A DNA stretch of 62,225 nucleotides from positions 1-62,225 of the forward strand of contig MGDH01000019.1 in assembly GCA_001790855.1 (NCBI GenBank), read 5' to 3'. Under the pieces are notes generated by a model. The model was given only the letters and a program-made list of their open reading frames with translations. It was not told the DNA's origin and searched no databases. Below are positions 38,505-49,861 of the stretch, piece by piece (the stretch's first letter is position 1; every line of letters starts with the position of its first letter). The DNA is from Candidatus Schekmanbacteria bacterium RIFCSPLOWO2_02_FULL_38_14. GTDB lineage: Bacteria; Schekmanbacteria; GWA2-38-11. Made by a program: the position numbers and the translations under genes.

Positions 38505-38756
38505 CTAGCGAGCAGAGACAACGGTTTTATCATTATGGCATTTGACGCAGTTCTCGGTTTTTATTGGATGTTTTTTGCCAAGAGGTTTTTCTTTATCTTC
38601 ATTCTTGTTGTGACATTCTAAGCAGGCTTTATCACTTGAATAAGATTTGTGGGTTTCATCAATTGGTATTTTTGTCGGATGCTTTTTGGGAAGATAATTG
38701 AGTATTACAAACAAAAGAATAACTCCAATAATCAACACATAAGTACTCTTTTTCAT
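38505..38756 (-). CDS. Small membrane-anchored diheme c-type cytochrome
   Basis: The 83-residue protein has an N-terminal membrane segment (residues 6-22) and two heme-binding motifs, C45-LE-C48-H49 and C70-VK-C73-H74. Histidines at 26, 36 and 63 could serve as axial ligands. The size is close to a truncated NapB-like or multiheme module, but it may be a complete small electron carrier. Its partner reductase is not in the window. It indicates periplasmic electron transfer. Confidence 0.8.
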   Translation of the reverse strand: MKKSTYVLIIGVILLFVILNYLPKKHPTKIPIDETHKSYSSDKACLECHNKNEDKEKPLGKKHPIKTENCVKCHNDKTVVSAR

Positions 38757-38898: not shown

Positions 38899-40410
38899 AT
38901 GGCATCTGTTAAAGCCTTAAATATTTTTATTTTATTCTTTCTTTTAATTCCTATTGCCTGTTCCAGGGGAGCAACCTCAAACCAGCAGAAAATCCAGGAA
39001 CCTGTCATAAGCGGCTCTTGGTATCCGGCAGATAAGGAGGGGCTCAAGAGAGAAATTAATTTATTCCTCGATAGTACAGAGCCTGAAAAAATTGATGGCG
39101 ACATAGTTGCTTTAATTGAACCTCACGCCGGATACAGTTATTCAGGAAAGGGCGCTGCTTTTGGTTACAAGGCTATAAAAGGAAAGAATTACAAAAGGGT
39201 GATAATGCTGGCGCCAAGCCATTATGCATGGTTTAACGGCGTAGCAGTTCTTGATGCGACACATTACAGAACCCCTTTAGGGCTTATCAGCATTGATACT
39301 GATGTGTGTAAAAAACTTTTGCAGGAGCCGTATTTCAAGACAGTTCCGGAGGCTTATAAAAAAGAGCATTCCATTGAAATCCAGCTCCCGTTCATCCAGC
39401 AGAGTTTAAAAGATGTCAGTCTGGTCCCATTGCTCGTTGGAGAAGTAAACGGAGATGAGTACAGAAAAATTGCTTCAAGTATCAAAAAGTTTATTGATAA
39501 GGAAACTTTAGTAATTGCAAGCTCGGATTTCACCCATTACGGATTTAATTTTGGCTATATCCCTTTTAAGAAAAATATCAGGAAGAATTTAAAAAAGCTT
39601 GACAGCGGAGCAGTTGAGAAAATTCTTAAGATAGATTCTGAAGGATTTATAAAATACGTGGATAAAACCGGAATAACTATCTGCGGAAGAAAACCCATAG
39701 CAATTCTCCTTGAAATTCTTCCAAAAAATATTAATGCAAGACTCATAAGCTACTATACTTCAGGTGACCTTATTGGAAATTACTCAACATCAGTGAGCTA
39801 TGTGACAATGGCTTTTTTTAAAAAAAAAGAGAAGAATAATTTTCAGGCTTCAGATGAAGATAGCCTGAATAAGGAGGAAAGAGAAACCCTTGTAAAGCTT
39901 GCAAGAAAAACTCTTGACAGTTTTTTAAACGGAGGGAATCTGGATGATGTTACCAAAGGACTAAACCTGACTCCAAAGTTGAAGGAAAAGAGGGGAGTTT
40001 TTGTTACAATTAAAAAGCACGGAAATTTAAGAGGCTGCATTGGTTATATTGAAGGGATAAAACCCCTTTATGAAGCAGTTATTGATAACACTATAAATGC
40101 CTGTTCACGGGATTATCGCTTTGTGTCAATGGTAAAAGGCGAGGATAAGGAAGTAGCGCTTGAGATTTCTGTGATGACTCCATTAAAAGAGATTAAAAGT
40201 GTTGATGAGATAGTTGTCGGGAAACACGGGCTTGTAATACAAAAAGGATTTAGCAAAGGGCTTTTGCTGCCGCAGGTAGCAACTGAGTACGGATGGGACC
40301 GCGAGACATTTCTTAATCAGGTTTCTCTTAAAGCCGGATTGCCATATAATGCATGGAAAAGCGGCTCAACTATCTGGACATTCAGCGCACAGGTGTTTGG
40401 GGAGGAATAG
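38899..40410 (+). CDS. AmmeMemoRadiSam B-A fusion (MEMO1-like plus AMMECR1)
   Basis: Residues 30-300 are a MEMO1-like domain with H76 (EPHAGYSYSG), H108 (APSHYAWF), H213 (SDFTHYGF) and C262, matching the known metal-ligand pattern of MEMO1. Residues 320-503 are an AMMECR1 domain with R378-G-C380 in LRGCIGY. An N-terminal hydrophobic leader ends in a cysteine (IPIACS), so export is possible. The fused pair and the adjacent radical SAM gene define the AmmeMemoRadiSam locus. The overall chemistry is unresolved. Confidence 0.9.
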   Translation: MASVKALNIFILFFLLIPIACSRGATSNQQKIQEPVISGSWYPADKEGLKREINLFLDSTEPEKIDGDIVALIEPHAGYSYSGKGAAFGYKAIKGKNYKRVIMLAPSHYAWFNGVAVLDATHYRTPLGLISIDTDVCKKLLQEPYFKTVPEAYKKEHSIEIQLPFIQQSLKDVSLVPLLVGEVNGDEYRKIASSIKKFIDKETLVIASSDFTHYGFNFGYIPFKKNIRKNLKKLDSGAVEKILKIDSEGFIKYVDKTGITICGRKPIAILLEILPKNINARLISYYTSGDLIGNYSTSVSYVTMAFFKKKEKNNFQASDEDSLNKEERETLVKLARKTLDSFLNGGNLDDVTKGLNLTPKLKEKRGVFVTIKKHGNLRGCIGYIEGIKPLYEAVIDNTINACSRDYRFVSMVKGEDKEVALEISVMTPLKEIKSVDEIVVGKHGLVIQKGFSKGLLLPQVATEYGWDRETFLNQVSLKAGLPYNAWKSGSTIWTFSAQVFGEE

Positions 40411-40480
40411 AAGAGTTTAAAAATCATTTTTTTATTTTCCTTGAACCCTAGCAGATTGTTGAAATAGTCCTTTTTTGACC

Positions 40481-40655
40481 GTCATTGCGAGGAACGTAGT
40501 GACGAAGCAATCTCAGTTTTCTCCCCCTTTACTTGCCTACCGGCAGGCAGGGAAAAGGGGAATAGAGGGGAATTTGAGATTGCCACCTGCCTGCCGGCAG
40601 GCAGGTGATCCCGGAGCCTGTCCTGAGCAATGCCGAAGGAGTCGTTCGCAATGAC
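40481..40655 (+). repeat. Dispersed palindromic element with terminal inverted repeats
   Basis: The ends GTCATTGCGAGGAACG and CGTTCGCAATGAC (40643-40655) form an imperfect inverted repeat. Inside lies a 24-base palindrome around CTGCCGGCAG (40584-40607). Related pieces occur at 41877-41905 and 48608-48629. The 324-base gap between the MEMO fusion and the DUF362 gene contains only this element and short AT-rich ends. Confidence 0.7.
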
Positions 40656-40734
40656 AACATGAGAATTGTGACACAGGCGTAATGACATTTATTGAGCTTT
40701 TTATCATTCTGCTAGAATCCTTTTTTTATATGTT

Positions 40735-41772
40735 ATGTTCAGAAGAAAATTTTTAAAAAGATTTTTAGGAATCGGAGCAGCTCTTTTATCTTTTAATGGC
40801 TTTAAAAAAAATGCCCATGGTGAACTTCCTGAGTGGTTATGGGGAAATAAAAAGAACACGCCCTCAAAAATTAAAAAAATTTCAAAATCTGGAGCAAAGG
40901 CTAAGGTCATTATTGGACAGGATAAAGAAATACTGGATAAAGAGGGCAGGGCAAGAAAAGATTTAGCAAGAAAAATAATTTCAGAATCCATAAAAGCCCT
41001 TGCAGGAGAAAAAGATGTAGCAAATGCATGGAAGGCTCTTTTTAATAAAGACGATACTGTTGGAATTAAATTAAACTGCCTTGCAGGCAGGGGATTATCT
41101 CCCAGAAAAGAGGTTGTTGATTTAATAATTGAGGGGTTAAAGCTTGCAGGATTAGAAGATGAGCAGATTATAGTCTGGGACAAGGTTGACATAGACCTTC
41201 AAAAGGCAGGCTATGCCATTAACTATTACAGCAAGGGTGTGAAGTGTTTTGGCACAAACAGAGATTATGAGCCAGAGCCTGAAATAACCGGTTCAGTTGG
41301 AAGCTGTTTCAGCAGGATAATTTCAAAAAGATGTTCAGCAATAATCAATGTTCCTGTGCTAAAAGACCATGACCTTGCAGGTGTTTCAATCGGGATGAAA
41401 AATTTTTATGGAGCAATTCATAATCCAAATAAATATCACGACAGCAACTGCAACCCCTATGTGGCAGACCTTAATTCCCATCCCTATATAAAAGATAAAT
41501 TAAGACTAATAATCTGTGATGCAATCACTGCCCAGTACCACGGTGGACCTGCATACAATCCTCAATGGGTATGGAATTTTAACGGAATAATCATGGCGAC
41601 TGACCCTGTTGCGCTTGACAGAATTGGAGCAAAGATTATCGAAGATAAAAGAAAGGAAAAGGGTTTGTCTTCTTTTAAGGAAGCTAAAAGAGAGCCAAAA
41701 TACATAGAAACTGCAGCGGATTTGAAGCTTGGCAATTGTGATTCTGGAAAGATTGAAGTGGTGAGGGTGTAA
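40735..41772 (+). CDS. Tat-exported DUF362 domain protein
   Basis: The 345-residue protein starts with a twin-arginine signal (RRKFLKRFLG from residue 3). The DUF362 body includes the VGIKLNCLAGRG and VPVLKDHDLAGVSIGMKNFYG blocks. Many DUF362 proteins carry iron-sulfur ferredoxin domains, but no such cysteine cluster is evident here. Its place between the MEMO-AMMECR1 fusion and the radical SAM gene suggests a part in the same process. Confidence 0.85.
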   Translation: MFRRKFLKRFLGIGAALLSFNGFKKNAHGELPEWLWGNKKNTPSKIKKISKSGAKAKVIIGQDKEILDKEGRARKDLARKIISESIKALAGEKDVANAWKALFNKDDTVGIKLNCLAGRGLSPRKEVVDLIIEGLKLAGLEDEQIIVWDKVDIDLQKAGYAINYYSKGVKCFGTNRDYEPEPEITGSVGSCFSRIISKRCSAIINVPVLKDHDLAGVSIGMKNFYGAIHNPNKYHDSNCNPYVADLNSHPYIKDKLRLIICDAITAQYHGGPAYNPQWVWNFNGIIMATDPVALDRIGAKIIEDKRKEKGLSSFKEAKREPKYIETAADLKLGNCDSGKIEVVRV

Positions 41773-41922
41773 GAAGAGTGAATAGTGAACAGTGAATAGT
41801 AGATAGTAGCTGCCTGTCCCAGCCTGCGGTTGGCAGGTGCCGAACAGGCAGGCAGAGCCTTGCTCTGCTCTTTTCTGTCATTGCGAGCGAAGCGAAGCAA
41901 TCTCAATAAAGAGATTTTTTAT
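41773..41922 (+). repeat. Repeat-filled gap before the radical SAM gene
   Basis: This gap contains GTGAATAGTGAACAGTGAAT, found also in part at 38425, then CTGCCTGTCCCAGCCTGC-type palindromic pieces, then GTCATTGCGAGCGAAGCGAA at 41877. A reading frame crosses it into the gene, but the ribosome-binding site and Tat signal place the true start at 41923. Confidence 0.55.
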
Positions 41923-43074
41923 ATGAAAAGCAGAATCTCAAGAAGAAAGTTTTTAGCAAACACAATCAAAGGTGGCTGCGCATTAAGTCTTCTCTCTTCT
42001 GTCCACTCTGCCTCAACACCATCTTATGCAGGGATATTCGGCGAGGAGAAGAAGAAAGAGATAAAGCTTAAGGAGTGCATGTTCTATGACAAGAAACCTG
42101 AAATGAAGGTTGAGTGCCAGATTTGTCCCAAAAAATGCTCGATTGCAAACCAGGAAAGAGGTTACTGCGGTGTCAGGGAAAATCACAAAGGAACATATTA
42201 TACCCTTGTCCATTCCTATCCATGTTCAATCCATACAGACCCCATAGAGAAAAAACCGTTTTTCCATTATCTGCCGGGCACTCTTGCCTATTCGCTTGCT
42301 ACGGCGGGTTGCAATATTGAATGCAAATTCTGCCAGAACTGGGAGATAGCCCAGTTTCGGCCTGAACAGGTTGACAGCATCTATCTTCCACCTTCTGAAG
42401 TTCACAAGAACGCAAAGGCTGACAATGCATTAACTATTGCCGGAACTTATTCTGAACCTGTTGTCTTTTATGAGTATATGTATGATATTGCAAGACTGAG
42501 CGCAAAGACCGGGATAAGGACAGTGATGGTCTCCAATGGCTTTATTCAGGAAAAACCTCTGAAGGAAATATGCAGGTATCTGGCTGCCATAAAAATTGAT
42601 TTAAAGGGCTTTACAGAGAAGTTCTACAAGGAAACCTGTTCAGGCGAGTTAAAGCCTGTTCTTGAAACACTTGTCAGGTTGAAAAATATTGGCATCTGGT
42701 TTGAAATTGTCGTACTGATTGTCCCAACCTTAAATGACAGCGAAAAAGAATTTAAAGAGATGACAAAATGGATTGTTGCAAACCTTGGGAAAGATGTGCC
42801 TGTACATTTCACAAGATTTCATCCAACCTATAAGATAAAAAACCTTCCTCCAACCCCTGTAACAACCCTTGAAAAGGCAAGGGAGATTGCATCATCTGCA
42901 GGGATAAATTTTCCCTATGTTGGAAATGTCCCGGGACACCCTTGGGAGAACACCTACTGCCCCAAATGCAAGAGTATTGTTATAAACAGGGTTGGCTTCT
43001 ACATAAGAGAGAATAATCTTAAAGCTGGCAGATGTGGCAAATGTAAAGAAAAGATTCCGGGTGTGTGGAGCTGA
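41923..43074 (+). CDS. AmmeMemoRadiSam system radical SAM enzyme, Tat-tagged
   Basis: The 383-residue protein is a radical SAM enzyme with the cluster ligands C130, C134 and C137 in CNIECKFC. A cysteine-rich N-terminal block (CQICPKKCSIANQERGYCG) precedes it, and a C-terminal CPKC/CGKC pair may bind metal. The N terminus reads SRRKFLAN, a twin-arginine signal, which is odd for an oxygen-sensitive radical enzyme. It works with the MEMO-AMMECR1 fusion by definition of the family. The substrate is unknown. Confidence 0.9.
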   Translation: MKSRISRRKFLANTIKGGCALSLLSSVHSASTPSYAGIFGEEKKKEIKLKECMFYDKKPEMKVECQICPKKCSIANQERGYCGVRENHKGTYYTLVHSYPCSIHTDPIEKKPFFHYLPGTLAYSLATAGCNIECKFCQNWEIAQFRPEQVDSIYLPPSEVHKNAKADNALTIAGTYSEPVVFYEYMYDIARLSAKTGIRTVMVSNGFIQEKPLKEICRYLAAIKIDLKGFTEKFYKETCSGELKPVLETLVRLKNIGIWFEIVVLIVPTLNDSEKEFKEMTKWIVANLGKDVPVHFTRFHPTYKIKNLPPTPVTTLEKAREIASSAGINFPYVGNVPGHPWENTYCPKCKSIVINRVGFYIRENNLKAGRCGKCKEKIPGVWS

Positions 43075-43094: not shown

Positions 43095-43408
43095 ATAAAC
43101 TTCTTAAATTGACCATCCTGCATTTATGATATAAGGTTACATCACCCATCCTTAAATGTAATTAAAAATATAAATTATGCTGAAATCATACCTTGAACGA
43201 ATATTAGATGTTGCAAAAAGAGGAGATGCAAGAGAGAAAAGTTATTGTTCCTGCCTTGAGGAACTTTTTAAAAATTATGCTGAGTCAGTAAATAAGAAAC
43301 AGATAAATGTTACTACCCTACCTAAAAAAACTGAGGCTGGAAATCCGGATTTGAGAATATGGGATGGGAAACAACATATTGTTGGGTATGTTGAAGCTAA
43401 AGCGCCTA
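43095..43408 (+). pseudogene. Truncated second copy of the restriction-modification gene
   Basis: The leader from about 43095 and codons 1-77 from 43177 match the gene at 22852 closely (MLKSYLERI, RGDAREKSY, KKTEAGNPDLRIWDG, YVEAKAP). The similarity stops at about 43407, where the next gene's stop codon lies on the other strand. The nuclease core residues D, E and K remain, but the methyltransferase and target-recognition parts are gone. The frame continues briefly with unrelated residues. Confidence 0.88.
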
Positions 43409-45727
43409 TTTTTTCTGTGAAACCAACCACATCCCCACTGCCACAAAGTTCAAGACGGCTATAAAGAGGCAGGTTTTTGAAATTCCGAAGATTGGCACGA
43501 AAAATACTCCTGTGAGAATGGCGCTTAAGAATGCTCCGAGATGGTCAGCACTGTTAATAATTCCTGCGGTTTTTCCTGTATTTCCTGAGGCTGAAAAGTA
43601 GGTTTTTGAAGCACACGGGAAAGCAGTTCCTGTTAAAAGCCCTGCAATAAAAAGGAATGCTGAAAAAGAAATCTCAACTGGCAAGAGGCTTCCTGCCTGA
43701 ACTCTTGTGAAAAACAGTATGAGAGGGGAAAGAGACAGGGAAAATATTATAATGAGGATGAGGTTTGCAAAGAGAATCCTTTCTGCTTGAATCTTTTTTG
43801 TTAGCAGGGTTTTAATAAAATAGCCACCAATTGCAAGACCGAGCATGAAGGTTGCGACTATCAAGCCAATCTTCTGATAGACATAGCCAAAGATATTCTG
43901 AAAGGCGAAAATTAAAATTATACTGAAAGCCATTCCTGCAAAACCAGCAGCAAATATAGAAAATGCAGAGTTAAATTTTTTAATATCTTCAGTGCCTTTC
44001 TTGGAAACAGAAAGATAAGCAAGCCTTAGCATAAGGAAAAAGAGCAGAGGAAGCAGATACCAGTAAAATTTTATTTTGCTTAAAAACTTCACATAGTCTG
44101 CAAACTGAAACTGAGATGATTTTTTCCAGCCAGAGAGCCTGTCCCATAAGAGCAGGCTGTAAAAATATGTCACAGGCTTTTCATCTGTGTTTACAGGGAT
44201 ATCTTTCAGTTCAGAAAGTTTCTTTCTTGCAAACTCCACCCTTTCCCTGGGCAGGAGCAGTTCAAAGTGAAATGGGGTGAAGTAGTATGAACTGATATTT
44301 TTTGAAGAAAACCGCGAAGCAAGGATTTTTCTATCAAAGGTTATTGACCTGTTACTGTCAGAAGAAAAAAATATATTTTTTTCACCCGGAGAAACAAGGA
44401 CAAATCTGAATGCTTCTTTCAGGGTTTTATAAAGCGAGCCGGTATAGCTTAAAATCTCTTTTCCAAAATAATTTACTTCAGAGGTTATTGATGTGACAAT
44501 TACTCCTTCAGGGGTTAAGAGCTTTTTTAAATCAGAGAAAAATTCCCTTGTATAGAAGCGGTTAATCATTGCTGTTGATGGGTCAGGAAGGTTCAGGATT
44601 ATCAGGTCATAGGTTTTTCTGCAGTTTTTTACATAATATCTTCCATCAAACGGGAAAATTGCAAGTCTTCTGTCTGCAAGGGCATTTCTGTCTTCTTCAG
44701 GAAGGAAGTCTTTTAGAGATTCTATCTCTCTGAAGTCAAGCTCAAGATAATCAAGTCCTGTAATCTCATATCTTAGAATATTTTTAATTATCCCTGTTAC
44801 TCCGCCTCCAATCAATAAGAGATTTTTGGGATTTGGATGCTCTGCCATTGCAAGGTGCGCAAAGAGAGCCTGCTGATACTCATCAGGGAATGAAGAGGTA
44901 TAATTGCCATTTAAAAAAAGGCTGTACTGGTTTTCTGATTTGCCAATTGCAATATTCTGATATTTGGAATCAACAGATGATAGAAGTTTTAAGCCGCTGG
45001 TAAAGGAGGTCCATCTTTTTTGAACAGTAAAATCTTCTATCTTTTTTATCAGTCCAAAGTTAAGGCACAGGAGAAGTACAATGCAGAGCGAGGCGGGTAT
45101 TAAAAAAGCTGAAACCCTGGAAGATTTTTTTTGAAATTCTGCTGATAAAACTGCAAGTACTGCAAACGCAATTGAGTTGGCTATTGTTATTGTTGTAAAT
45201 GAGGAAAAGTAGGGGACAAAAAGGAATGTGAAAAGAAGCCCGCCAAGGATACTTCCAAAAGCCTCGAAAATAAAAACATTTGCAATTCCATCTGCAGGCT
45301 TTCCCTCGTCATTTGCTTTTGCAAGGCAAATGAGCGGGAATGTAAAGCCTATAAAGGCGCTTCCGGGTGAAACAGCGAGGAATATAAAAAGAACCATTTT
45401 TAAAAAAGGCATATATTCTCCGGGAGGCACTTCCAAGATGGTTCTGCCTGTTCTTATGAAATATATTAATCCTGAAAAGACAAAAGTTAACAGGATTGCT
45501 AAAAAGAAAAATAATTTTAAAGGTTCTGAAACCCTGATGGAGATTTTACTGCCGCCATAGGCGCCTGCAGAGATTCCAAAAAGCCAGAAACCGAGAATGA
45601 GACCAAGACAGAGCTCATTGCCATAGCAGACTACAAGAATCTCTCTTATGTATGTAACCTGCATTATGAGAGCATAGAAACCTGTAAATGTGATGGCAAG
45701 GAAGAGAATCCCTTTTTGCTTGATCAT
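43406..45727 (-). CDS. Spermidine synthase-like fused membrane protein
   Basis: The 773-residue protein has two membrane regions (about residues 1-215 and 530-773, each with 6 or more hydrophobic segments) around a spermidine-synthase-like methyltransferase fold. The fold includes LLIGGGVTGIIKNIL and LDYLELDFREI, then DLIILNLPDPSTAM. Similar fused proteins occur in many bacteria without a proven substrate, and polyamine synthesis is not assured. Its stop codon overlaps the breakpoint of the truncated restriction gene. Confidence 0.75.
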   Translation of the reverse strand: MIKQKGILFLAITFTGFYALIMQVTYIREILVVCYGNELCLGLILGFWLFGISAGAYGGSKISIRVSEPLKLFFFLAILLTFVFSGLIYFIRTGRTILEVPPGEYMPFLKMVLFIFLAVSPGSAFIGFTFPLICLAKANDEGKPADGIANVFIFEAFGSILGGLLFTFLFVPYFSSFTTITIANSIAFAVLAVLSAEFQKKSSRVSAFLIPASLCIVLLLCLNFGLIKKIEDFTVQKRWTSFTSGLKLLSSVDSKYQNIAIGKSENQYSLFLNGNYTSSFPDEYQQALFAHLAMAEHPNPKNLLLIGGGVTGIIKNILRYEITGLDYLELDFREIESLKDFLPEEDRNALADRRLAIFPFDGRYYVKNCRKTYDLIILNLPDPSTAMINRFYTREFFSDLKKLLTPEGVIVTSITSEVNYFGKEILSYTGSLYKTLKEAFRFVLVSPGEKNIFFSSDSNRSITFDRKILASRFSSKNISSYYFTPFHFELLLPRERVEFARKKLSELKDIPVNTDEKPVTYFYSLLLWDRLSGWKKSSQFQFADYVKFLSKIKFYWYLLPLLFFLMLRLAYLSVSKKGTEDIKKFNSAFSIFAAGFAGMAFSIILIFAFQNIFGYVYQKIGLIVATFMLGLAIGGYFIKTLLTKKIQAERILFANLILIIIFSLSLSPLILFFTRVQAGSLLPVEISFSAFLFIAGLLTGTAFPCASKTYFSASGNTGKTAGIINSADHLGAFLSAILTGVFFVPIFGISKTCLFIAVLNFVAVGMWLVSQKK

Positions 45728-48748: not shown

Positions 48749-49861
48749 TTAACCAATTGAGAAATTGGTTAGCTTTATATTTTTTAAATCACTGTTTCCA
48801 AGGCCTAAGTCCTGTGCAGCTTTGATGTGCAAGGCAAATTCCGCTGCTAAAGTCTTTCCCATCTCCTTAGCTTTTTTATCAATGATGCTGAGCCCTACAG
48901 CATCGTGGGCTACTAAATCCCTGCTTGCAATAATCTGGTTATTTATAAATTGTGGAGGTCCAAAAGGACCGTTTTCACAGATTCCCATAATGGCGTCGCA
49001 TAGAACCAGCTTGGTTTTATTTTTTATTTGAGGGTGAAGATTTAATTCAGCAATCTGAGGATTTGCCGTATGGTTATGCATTTTCTGGATAACTATTCCT
49101 GCATTTACTTCATCAGGTTTAAAGAAAAATGGTCCGTCTCCAAGGGGAATATAACCGTAAGCGCTCTTAAGAGAGAGAGTTACACCTGCCTTGGAAGCTC
49201 CGCTGCTTGATTGATTCAGGCAGTTTTTCAGGACAGGGACATTTATGATATAGTCGCAGTACTGAGTTAAGAGTTTTGAAAGGTAAAGCTCAAGGTCAAC
49301 GCTTGGAATCTTGACTTTAGTATTTTTATCATAGCCAATATTGTTATGGTTATGCCCAAAACATCTGTAACCATCATTCCCGTCATTGATAATATAGCCT
49401 GCTTTTTCCAGACTCCGGTCAAGCTTGTCCCATATCAGAATATTATTTTTCTTTATCCCTGATTCTGACAGGCTGTCAGCAATTGCATAGGCAACTTCAG
49501 GGTGGGTTGGAAGTTGGTGGTTTGTTACATTTACCTTAAACCCTATAATTTCTTTTTCTTTAAGGTTTGGGAATATATTGTGCCATGCATCTTTGATATT
49601 TTTTTCACCGGTCAGGCTTATTACAGCCTTGTCAACCATTTCCCTTGCAATGGCAGGGCTGATTTTTCCGGCTTCATTCATCACCTTTGAATGTGTGATT
49701 GTAAATACATCAGAAATGGTTATTGCGCTTTGTTTGGCTGTTTCTGCAAAGGCATTTGTGACAGAGTTTTTAAGTGCTGAAGAAAGAGGGATAGAGGCAG
49801 TGGCAAAACCTGCTGCCTTTATAAAAGAGCGCCGTGAGATTCTTTTCTTTTTGTTAAGCAT
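48749..49861 (-). CDS. Second Tat-exported DUF362 domain protein
   Basis: The 370-residue protein has a clear twin-arginine signal (SRRSFIKAAG from residue 9) and DUF362 blocks (IIGFKVNVTNHQLPTHPEV, VPVLKNCLNQSSSGASKAG). It resembles the protein at 40735 in layout. The amidohydrolase lies upstream on the same strand, so the two may form a unit. Its substrate is unknown. Confidence 0.85.
   Translation of the reverse strand: MLNKKKRISRRSFIKAAGFATASIPLSSALKNSVTNAFAETAKQSAITISDVFTITHSKVMNEAGKISPAIAREMVDKAVISLTGEKNIKDAWHNIFPNLKEKEIIGFKVNVTNHQLPTHPEVAYAIADSLSESGIKKNNILIWDKLDRSLEKAGYIINDGNDGYRCFGHNHNNIGYDKNTKVKIPSVDLELYLSKLLTQYCDYIINVPVLKNCLNQSSSGASKAGVTLSLKSAYGYIPLGDGPFFFKPDEVNAGIVIQKMHNHTANPQIAELNLHPQIKNKTKLVLCDAIMGICENGPFGPPQFINNQIIASRDLVAHDAVGLSIIDKKAKEMGKTLAAEFALHIKAAQDLGLGNSDLKNIKLTNFSIG

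Follow-up and report, generated by a model that had tools for sequence, protein, structure and literature searches.

A candidate exported version of the AmmeMemoRadiSam system in a Schekmanbacteria genome

A Probable Exported Paralogue of a Known System

AmmeMemoRadiSam, in which AMMECR1 and MEMO1 proteins are associated with a radical S-adenosylmethionine (SAM) enzyme, is a known system, ordinarily intracellular, whose reaction is not settled. A stretch of 62,225 nucleotides from Candidatus Schekmanbacteria bacterium RIFCSPLOWO2_02_FULL_38_14 (contig MGDH01000019.1, positions 1–62,225; hereafter the window) carries a locus of this kind at 38899–43074 on the forward strand, in which three genes encode a MEMO1-AMMECR1 fusion, then a DUF362 protein, then the radical SAM enzyme. 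Sequence comparisons indicate that the locus is probably an AmmeMemoRadiSam paralogue destined for export, whose parts would cooperate on the outer side of the membrane. Export of the whole set, as a prediction from sequence, is strongly supported by the grouping of signal-bearing enzymes in one clade, their spread over many phyla, the signals on three partners, the existence of a signal-less paralogous set, and a membrane partner predicted to face outward. The genes and leaders on which this reading rests are as follows.

38899–40410 (+), MEMO1-AMMECR1 fusion (protein B joined to protein A), 503 amino acids; above cut-off for TIGR04336, TIGR04335, PF01875 and PF01871
38899–38961 (+), Sec-type leader of the fusion, residues 1–21, with a borderline lipobox (IPIAC); hydrophobic leader kept in same-order relatives
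40735–41772 (+), DUF362 protein with a LarA-like fold in its predicted structure, 345 amino acids; PF04015
40735–40821 (+), twin-arginine leader of the DUF362 protein (MFRRKFLKRFLGIGAALLSF...); twin arginines nearly invariant in 32 homologs
41923–43074 (+), AmmeMemoRadiSam radical SAM enzyme, 383 amino acids from ATG 41923; TIGR04337
41923–42030 (+), twin-arginine leader of the radical SAM enzyme (SRRKFLANTIKGGCALSLLSSVHSASTPSYAG); signal-bearing homologs all in one clade
43406–45727 (-), membrane protein with seven transmembrane helices, a spermidine-synthase-fold domain and about seven further helices; NF037959 and predicted structure

The families and coordinates of the three-gene locus had been proposed in an original prediction made from the sequence alone, and both were borne out. 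The radical SAM enzyme scores 353.6–353.9 bits against TIGR04337 (cut-off 220), and the fusion scores 237.6 bits against TIGR04336 (MEMO, protein B; cut-off 26) and 169.3 bits against TIGR04335 (AMMECR1, protein A; cut-off 99). The locus therefore shares with the ordinary AmmeMemoRadiSam system the same three protein types, above curated cut-offs and with intact catalytic motifs. It differs in that every component has a leader, MEMO and AMMECR1 form a single chain, and DUF362 and a membrane protein are added as partners, whereas the ordinary version encoded in the same genome is leaderless. That second set comprises adjacent MEMO (273 amino acids) and AMMECR1 (188 amino acids) genes on contig 42, neither with a leader, and a radical SAM enzyme (340 amino acids), also without a leader, on contig 11. 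Its presence argues that the 38899–43074 locus is an exported paralogue rather than a mis-called gene, and provides a natural control within the same genome.

Because radical SAM enzymes depend on SAM and low-potential electrons, they are considered cytoplasmic, and a conserved clade exported by twin-arginine translocation (Tat) in many phyla would be an exception to that rule. A literature search that covered few subscription journals found AmmeMemoRadiSam mentioned incidentally only, and returned no report of an exported version, of DUF362 or membrane partners, or of a Tat-exported radical SAM enzyme. Such a system would also narrow the question of what the MEMO1/AMMECR1 pair does: should one set function outside the cytoplasm, then tRNA, rRNA and any other molecule confined to the cytoplasm could not be its substrate. 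Together the genes make up a short, testable parts list of five domains on four proteins.

Export Leaders at the Locus and in Related Genomes

Read from ATG 41923, the radical SAM enzyme begins MKSRISRRKFLANTIKGGCALSLL..., while the N-terminus of the DUF362 protein is MFRRKFLKRFLGIGAALL (also given as MFRRKFLKRFLGIG) and that of the fusion is MASVKALNIFILFFLLIPIAC. The twin-arginine leaders originally noticed on the first two proteins are seen in the sequence and conserved in homologs. The fusion had been credited with a possible lipoprotein-type leader; its Sec-type leader is clear, but the lipobox (PIAC) departs from the usual pattern at position -3, so that a lipoprotein is possible only. 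In two same-order relatives the operon order is kept and all three products have leaders (MKQLIKAVAVMFLLLFVSPSCAKAQ, MKRRKFVKVTAG and MDRRRFIKCAVAGG in G002; MKHLKLIAVNIIFLLLFTSC, MKRRTFIAAIAS and MERREFIKCIVQGG in G003), and the FTSC of G003 is a better lipobox than the PIAC of the Schekmanbacteria fusion. The Schekmanbacteria genome encodes Tat translocase components, namely TatC (E = 1.6e-68) and a TatA-type open reading frame beside it.

Leaders are also frequent on the partners of Tat-signaled radical SAM enzymes elsewhere. Tat leaders are present on 40 of 47 neighboring DUF362 proteins, and 29 of 32 neighboring fusions have a Sec, Tat or lipoprotein leader; several of the DUF362 proteins or fusions that lack one come from genes truncated at a contig end. 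In anammox-type genomes, in which the genes lie apart, a signaled MEMO-AMMECR1 fusion is still found alongside a signal-less MEMO, with a leader on 9 of the 10 long fusions examined and no clear leader on 10 short MEMO proteins.

ATG 41923 is the better start for the radical SAM enzyme because the alternative longer reading, from TTG 41830, passes through a copy of an interspersed repeat (41879–41904) that has 73 matches genome-wide. Upstream in-frame starts, raised in the original prediction as a possible source of error, would just extend the leaders and cannot remove the twin arginines.

Signaled Radical SAM Enzymes Form One Clade

To place these leaders in context, 211 distinct TIGR04337 enzymes, consisting of 80 close relatives and a broad genome sample, were surveyed: 116 have a twin-arginine leader, 12 a transmembrane or Sec-type leader, and 83 none, counts that are not population frequencies, the 80 close relatives being biased toward the window protein. 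The CxxxCxxC motif is kept in all 211 enzymes (116/116 Tat-signaled and 12/12 with a transmembrane segment). Of 52 members that resemble the cytoplasmic paralogue more closely, none is signaled, and chance occurrence of twin arginines was rejected on that ground.

All 128 signaled enzymes of the survey belong to one well-supported clade. A careful tree places every signaled row in it (bootstrap 99; Shimodaira–Hasegawa-like approximate likelihood ratio test, SH-aLRT, 98), with two state changes on the tree, and groups the genome's cytoplasmic radical SAM paralogue elsewhere, together with that of a same-order relative. A larger quick tree, in which an 83%-identical sister takes the place of the window row (removed as a duplicate), likewise recovers one signaled clade (SH-aLRT 99). 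Carriers of this clade include Planctomycetota (Brocadiae and Phycisphaerae), Acidobacteriota, Myxococcota, Omnitrophota, Calditrichota, Sumerlaeota, Hydrogenedentota and Latescibacterota, among others. The original prediction had pointed to Tat signals in radical SAM homologs as informative; they proved to be conserved in one clade, whereas the signal-less homologs are the cytoplasmic paralogues and one subgroup of the clade itself.

Two further features of these leaders were observed. Some clade members (L101, L150, L154, L166 and L182) have a radical SAM enzyme with a plain N-terminal transmembrane or Sec-type leader and no classical twin-arginine leader. Separately, the radical SAM Tat leaders are rich in cysteine within the hydrophobic region, where 91 of 116 contain this residue, with peaks 12 and 15 residues after the twin arginines, compared to 13 of 54 DUF362 leaders. 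Perhaps the cysteine-rich leader is left uncleaved and has a metal or disulfide role.

A LarA-Like Fold in the DUF362 Protein

The AlphaFold2 (AF2) model of the DUF362 protein (predicted local distance difference test, pLDDT, 89.1) matches LarA-family structures only. Foldseek returned 11 matches below E = 1e-3, all from the LarA family, of which the best was 7s91 (E = 2.8e-6, probability 1.00, TM-score 0.45). A sequence search of the PDB with the DUF362 protein gave no match, and the fold search was needed to reveal the likeness. DUF362 and LarA fall within one Pfam clan (PMC11770544), the LarA nickel-pincer racemase superfamily CL0471. The residues that tie the two together lie in one short segment.

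41368–41421 (+), invariant H212-x2-AGxSxGxK222 and conserved H229, with the spacing of the LarA catalytic histidine, cofactor lysine and nickel-ligand histidine; from alignments and model comparison

K222, H212 and H229 match the lysine and histidine positions of LarA for nickel-pincer nucleotide and nickel, where H200 is a nickel ligand (PMC11851776), and the downstream histidine is nearly invariant. Use of a nickel cofactor by the DUF362 protein is possible. Not all LarA features are shared: the second catalytic histidine (H108 in LarA) is missing, with WDR in place of ATGxHR, and an hhalign comparison of DUF362 with a LarA profile of 3 sequences only was not significant (probability 0.8%, E = 0.07). 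The DUF362 protein also differs from LarA in its Tat leader. Among 13 carrier genomes, LarC is present in 11 and a true LarA (Lar_N above cut-off) likewise in 11, while one (G289) has neither. With the second histidine missing, the profile match not significant and a true LarA usually present in carriers, DUF362 is a putative rather than an established nickel-pincer enzyme. A second DUF362 protein with a strong twin-arginine leader (RISRRSFIKAAGFATASIPLSS) is encoded at 48749–49861 (-), a few kilobases past the gene for the membrane protein.

A Membrane Partner With a Spermidine-Synthase-Fold Domain

The gene at 43406–45727 encodes a 14-helix protein whose AF2 model (pLDDT 88.1) has seven helices, a domain with the spermidine synthase fold, and then about seven helices. 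By the positive-inside rule, with charges averaged over 48 homologs, its N-terminus is predicted to lie inside and the domain outside. Relatives of this protein adjoin 44 of 92 signaled radical SAM genes for which 2.5 kb or more of downstream sequence is available, in varying orientation and order, and 2 of 35 signal-less ones (L161 and L162), both of which fall within the exported clade of the larger tree. Full-length relatives are present in 45 of the 47 genomes sampled that encode a signaled enzyme, compared to 12 of the 64 others, an association that favors a linked exported set.

The domain does not appear to be a true spermidine synthase. The acidic position of GxG(D/E)G is occupied by M, V, I, A, L or P in 45 of 48 aligned homologs (V in the window protein), and the first aspartate of DxxDP is asparagine in 34 of 48 homologs and aspartate in 2 of 48; a polyamine synthase was rejected on these losses. 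Because the acidic residue is lost, the domain is more likely, judging from its sequence, to be a SAM-binding one of methyltransferase type. A fungal protein, NHMT, is a seven-transmembrane protein of the endoplasmic reticulum that methylates secreted enzymes, is not a spermidine synthase, and shows the same acidic loss (PMC10349129). In both proteins seven transmembrane helices precede a spermidine-synthase-fold domain in which the acidic GxG(D/E)G residue is hydrophobic; unlike NHMT, the membrane partner is bacterial and has about seven extra helices after the domain, and the likeness is one of architecture and motif only. In one same-order relative, a further radical SAM/SPASM-like gene (L290, 3029–3922, +) lies directly upstream of the membrane partner.

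Where the Radical Chemistry May Take Place

In the mechanism that we propose, the radical SAM enzyme and the LarA-like DUF362 protein would fold and load their cofactors (iron-sulfur clusters and possibly nickel-pincer nucleotide) in the cytoplasm and cross the membrane folded by Tat, while MEMO1-AMMECR1 would cross by Sec and take up iron or copper outside. The exported parts would then act jointly with the 14-helix protein on the outer side of the cytoplasmic membrane, and the outward domain of that protein may be the means by which SAM is used or supplied there. If this explanation holds, the substrate must exist outside the cytoplasm, as a small molecule, lipid, glycan or exported protein, and is not RNA. 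The original prediction had held that the whole pathway may act outside the cytoplasm; export of the set is supported by conservation, whereas radical chemistry outside is a step we infer. A complete SAM-dependent radical pathway outside the cytoplasm, composed of the Tat-exported radical SAM and LarA-like enzymes and MEMO1-AMMECR1, with SAM passing to the outer face through the 14-helix protein or used by it, is a tentative proposal that we lean somewhat against.

Several observations weigh against an exported, jointly acting system. First, we know of no SAM or low-potential reductant available outside the cytoplasm. Second, the signals in the survey were called by a home-made rule, and the short Pfam TAT_signal model matches 8 of 43 signaled members; it is not among the families listed for 43 signal-less ones. 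Third, the count of genomes that have a full-length membrane partner ignores phylogeny, and an independent-pairs test is without power because the signal arose essentially once. Finally, in one subgroup of the exported clade (L155, L157, L160, L162, L188 and L197) a signal-less radical SAM enzyme is encoded next to a MEMO-AMMECR1 fusion with a Sec or Tat signal, so that export of the radical SAM enzyme is not universal even within the clade. In that subgroup the radical step may take place in the cytoplasm; alternatively, the enzyme may hitch-hike by co-export with a Tat-signaled partner, a route open only to loci whose fusion bears a Tat leader.

The same pairing of a signal-less enzyme with an exported fusion favors an alternative in which the leaders are genuine and radical SAM chemistry nonetheless occurs in the cytoplasm, on a Tat partner (for example DUF362) or a cofactor just before export, the enzyme's own export being incidental or a co-export step. 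That SAM and the reductant are cytoplasmic is established and also fits such a scheme. However, most members have their own Tat signal, kept over many phyla; the MEMO-AMMECR1 protein uses Sec in most loci and would hence be unfolded before export; and the SAM-fold domain of the membrane partner is predicted to lie outside. We consider cytoplasmic chemistry of this kind unlikely. It is more doubtful still that the N-termini are uncleaved anchors holding the enzymes at the inner face of the membrane with no translocation. The plain transmembrane segments of some clade members would suit anchoring, and cysteine in the hydrophobic region of the radical SAM leader (91/116) suggests a possible role beyond targeting, but the twin arginines are nearly invariant in both the aligned signaled radical SAM set and the DUF362 leaders, and many fusion leaders end in the manner of cleavable Sec signals. 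A start-codon error, by which the proteins would begin after the leader (in the radical SAM enzyme, for instance, at the methionine of residue 53) and be cytoplasmic, is very improbable and was rejected, since protein-level conservation of the leaders extends across many phyla, the upstream TTG reading falls within the repeat, and the 83%-identical relative retains RISRR, GGCA and PSYAGIF in its leader, with 15 synonymous codon differences within the first 40 codons.

Conserved Residues of the MEMO1-AMMECR1 Fusion and the Radical SAM Enzyme

The domains and motifs of these two proteins within the exported set are as follows.

39001–39816 (+), MEMO domain, with metal-ligand equivalents H76, H108 and C262 (human H49, H81 and C244) by alignment to 7kq8
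39886–40404 (+), AMMECR1 domain with the LRGCIGY motif; TIGR04335/PF01871, and a match to 1zq7 at E = 1.6e-37
42310–42333 (+), radical SAM cluster motif CNIECKFC (C130, C134 and C137), invariant in the aligned signaled set

In human MEMO1 the iron or copper ligands are H49, H81 and C244 only, H192 not being one of them (PMC11081632). The three histidines and a cysteine originally given as the MEMO1 ligands are thus not the right set: the ligands are two histidines and one cysteine, and H213 of the fusion matches the non-ligand H192. Among homologs with the column filled, the equivalents of H49 and H81 are conserved in 58 of 58 and that of C244 in 56 of 56. The fusion shares its sequence family and these three ligands with human MEMO1 (7KQ8 and 7L5C), and differs in its export leader, its AMMECR1 fusion and its radical SAM partner, a partner that human MEMO1 does not have.

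The cluster and SAM-site residues of the radical SAM enzyme are common to the exported and cytoplasmic classes, and a dead enzyme was rejected because all clusters and SAM-site residues are retained. The exported class also has near-invariant residues of its own (W140, P147, W283, R298 and W382), and it is therefore a distinct subfamily rather than a decaying one. Pyruvate formate-lyase activating enzyme (3c8f), the best sequence match among solved structures (E = 2.7e-5), has the radical SAM core in common with it; the enzyme studied here differs in its extra cysteine groups and export leader, and no glycyl radical partner was noticed beside its gene. Linked multiheme cytochromes, considered as an electron source, occur at 2 of 127 signaled loci only and show no association.

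Repeats and a Neighboring Gene

The operon is interrupted by two copies of the interspersed repeat, one in each intergenic gap.

40483–40514 (+), interspersed repeat copy, non-coding, between MEMO-AMMECR1 and DUF362; repeat search of the genome
41879–41904 (+), interspersed repeat copy immediately 5' of the radical SAM start; repeat search of the genome

The repeat reads CATTGCGAG...GAAGCAATCTC. In contrast to these repeat-bearing gaps, the genes of the same-order relatives are closely packed. Divergent from the operon is a cytochrome-type gene of a sort not conserved at other loci: 38505–38756 (-) encodes a short membrane-anchored protein with two CXXC heme-type motifs (CLECH and CVKCH).

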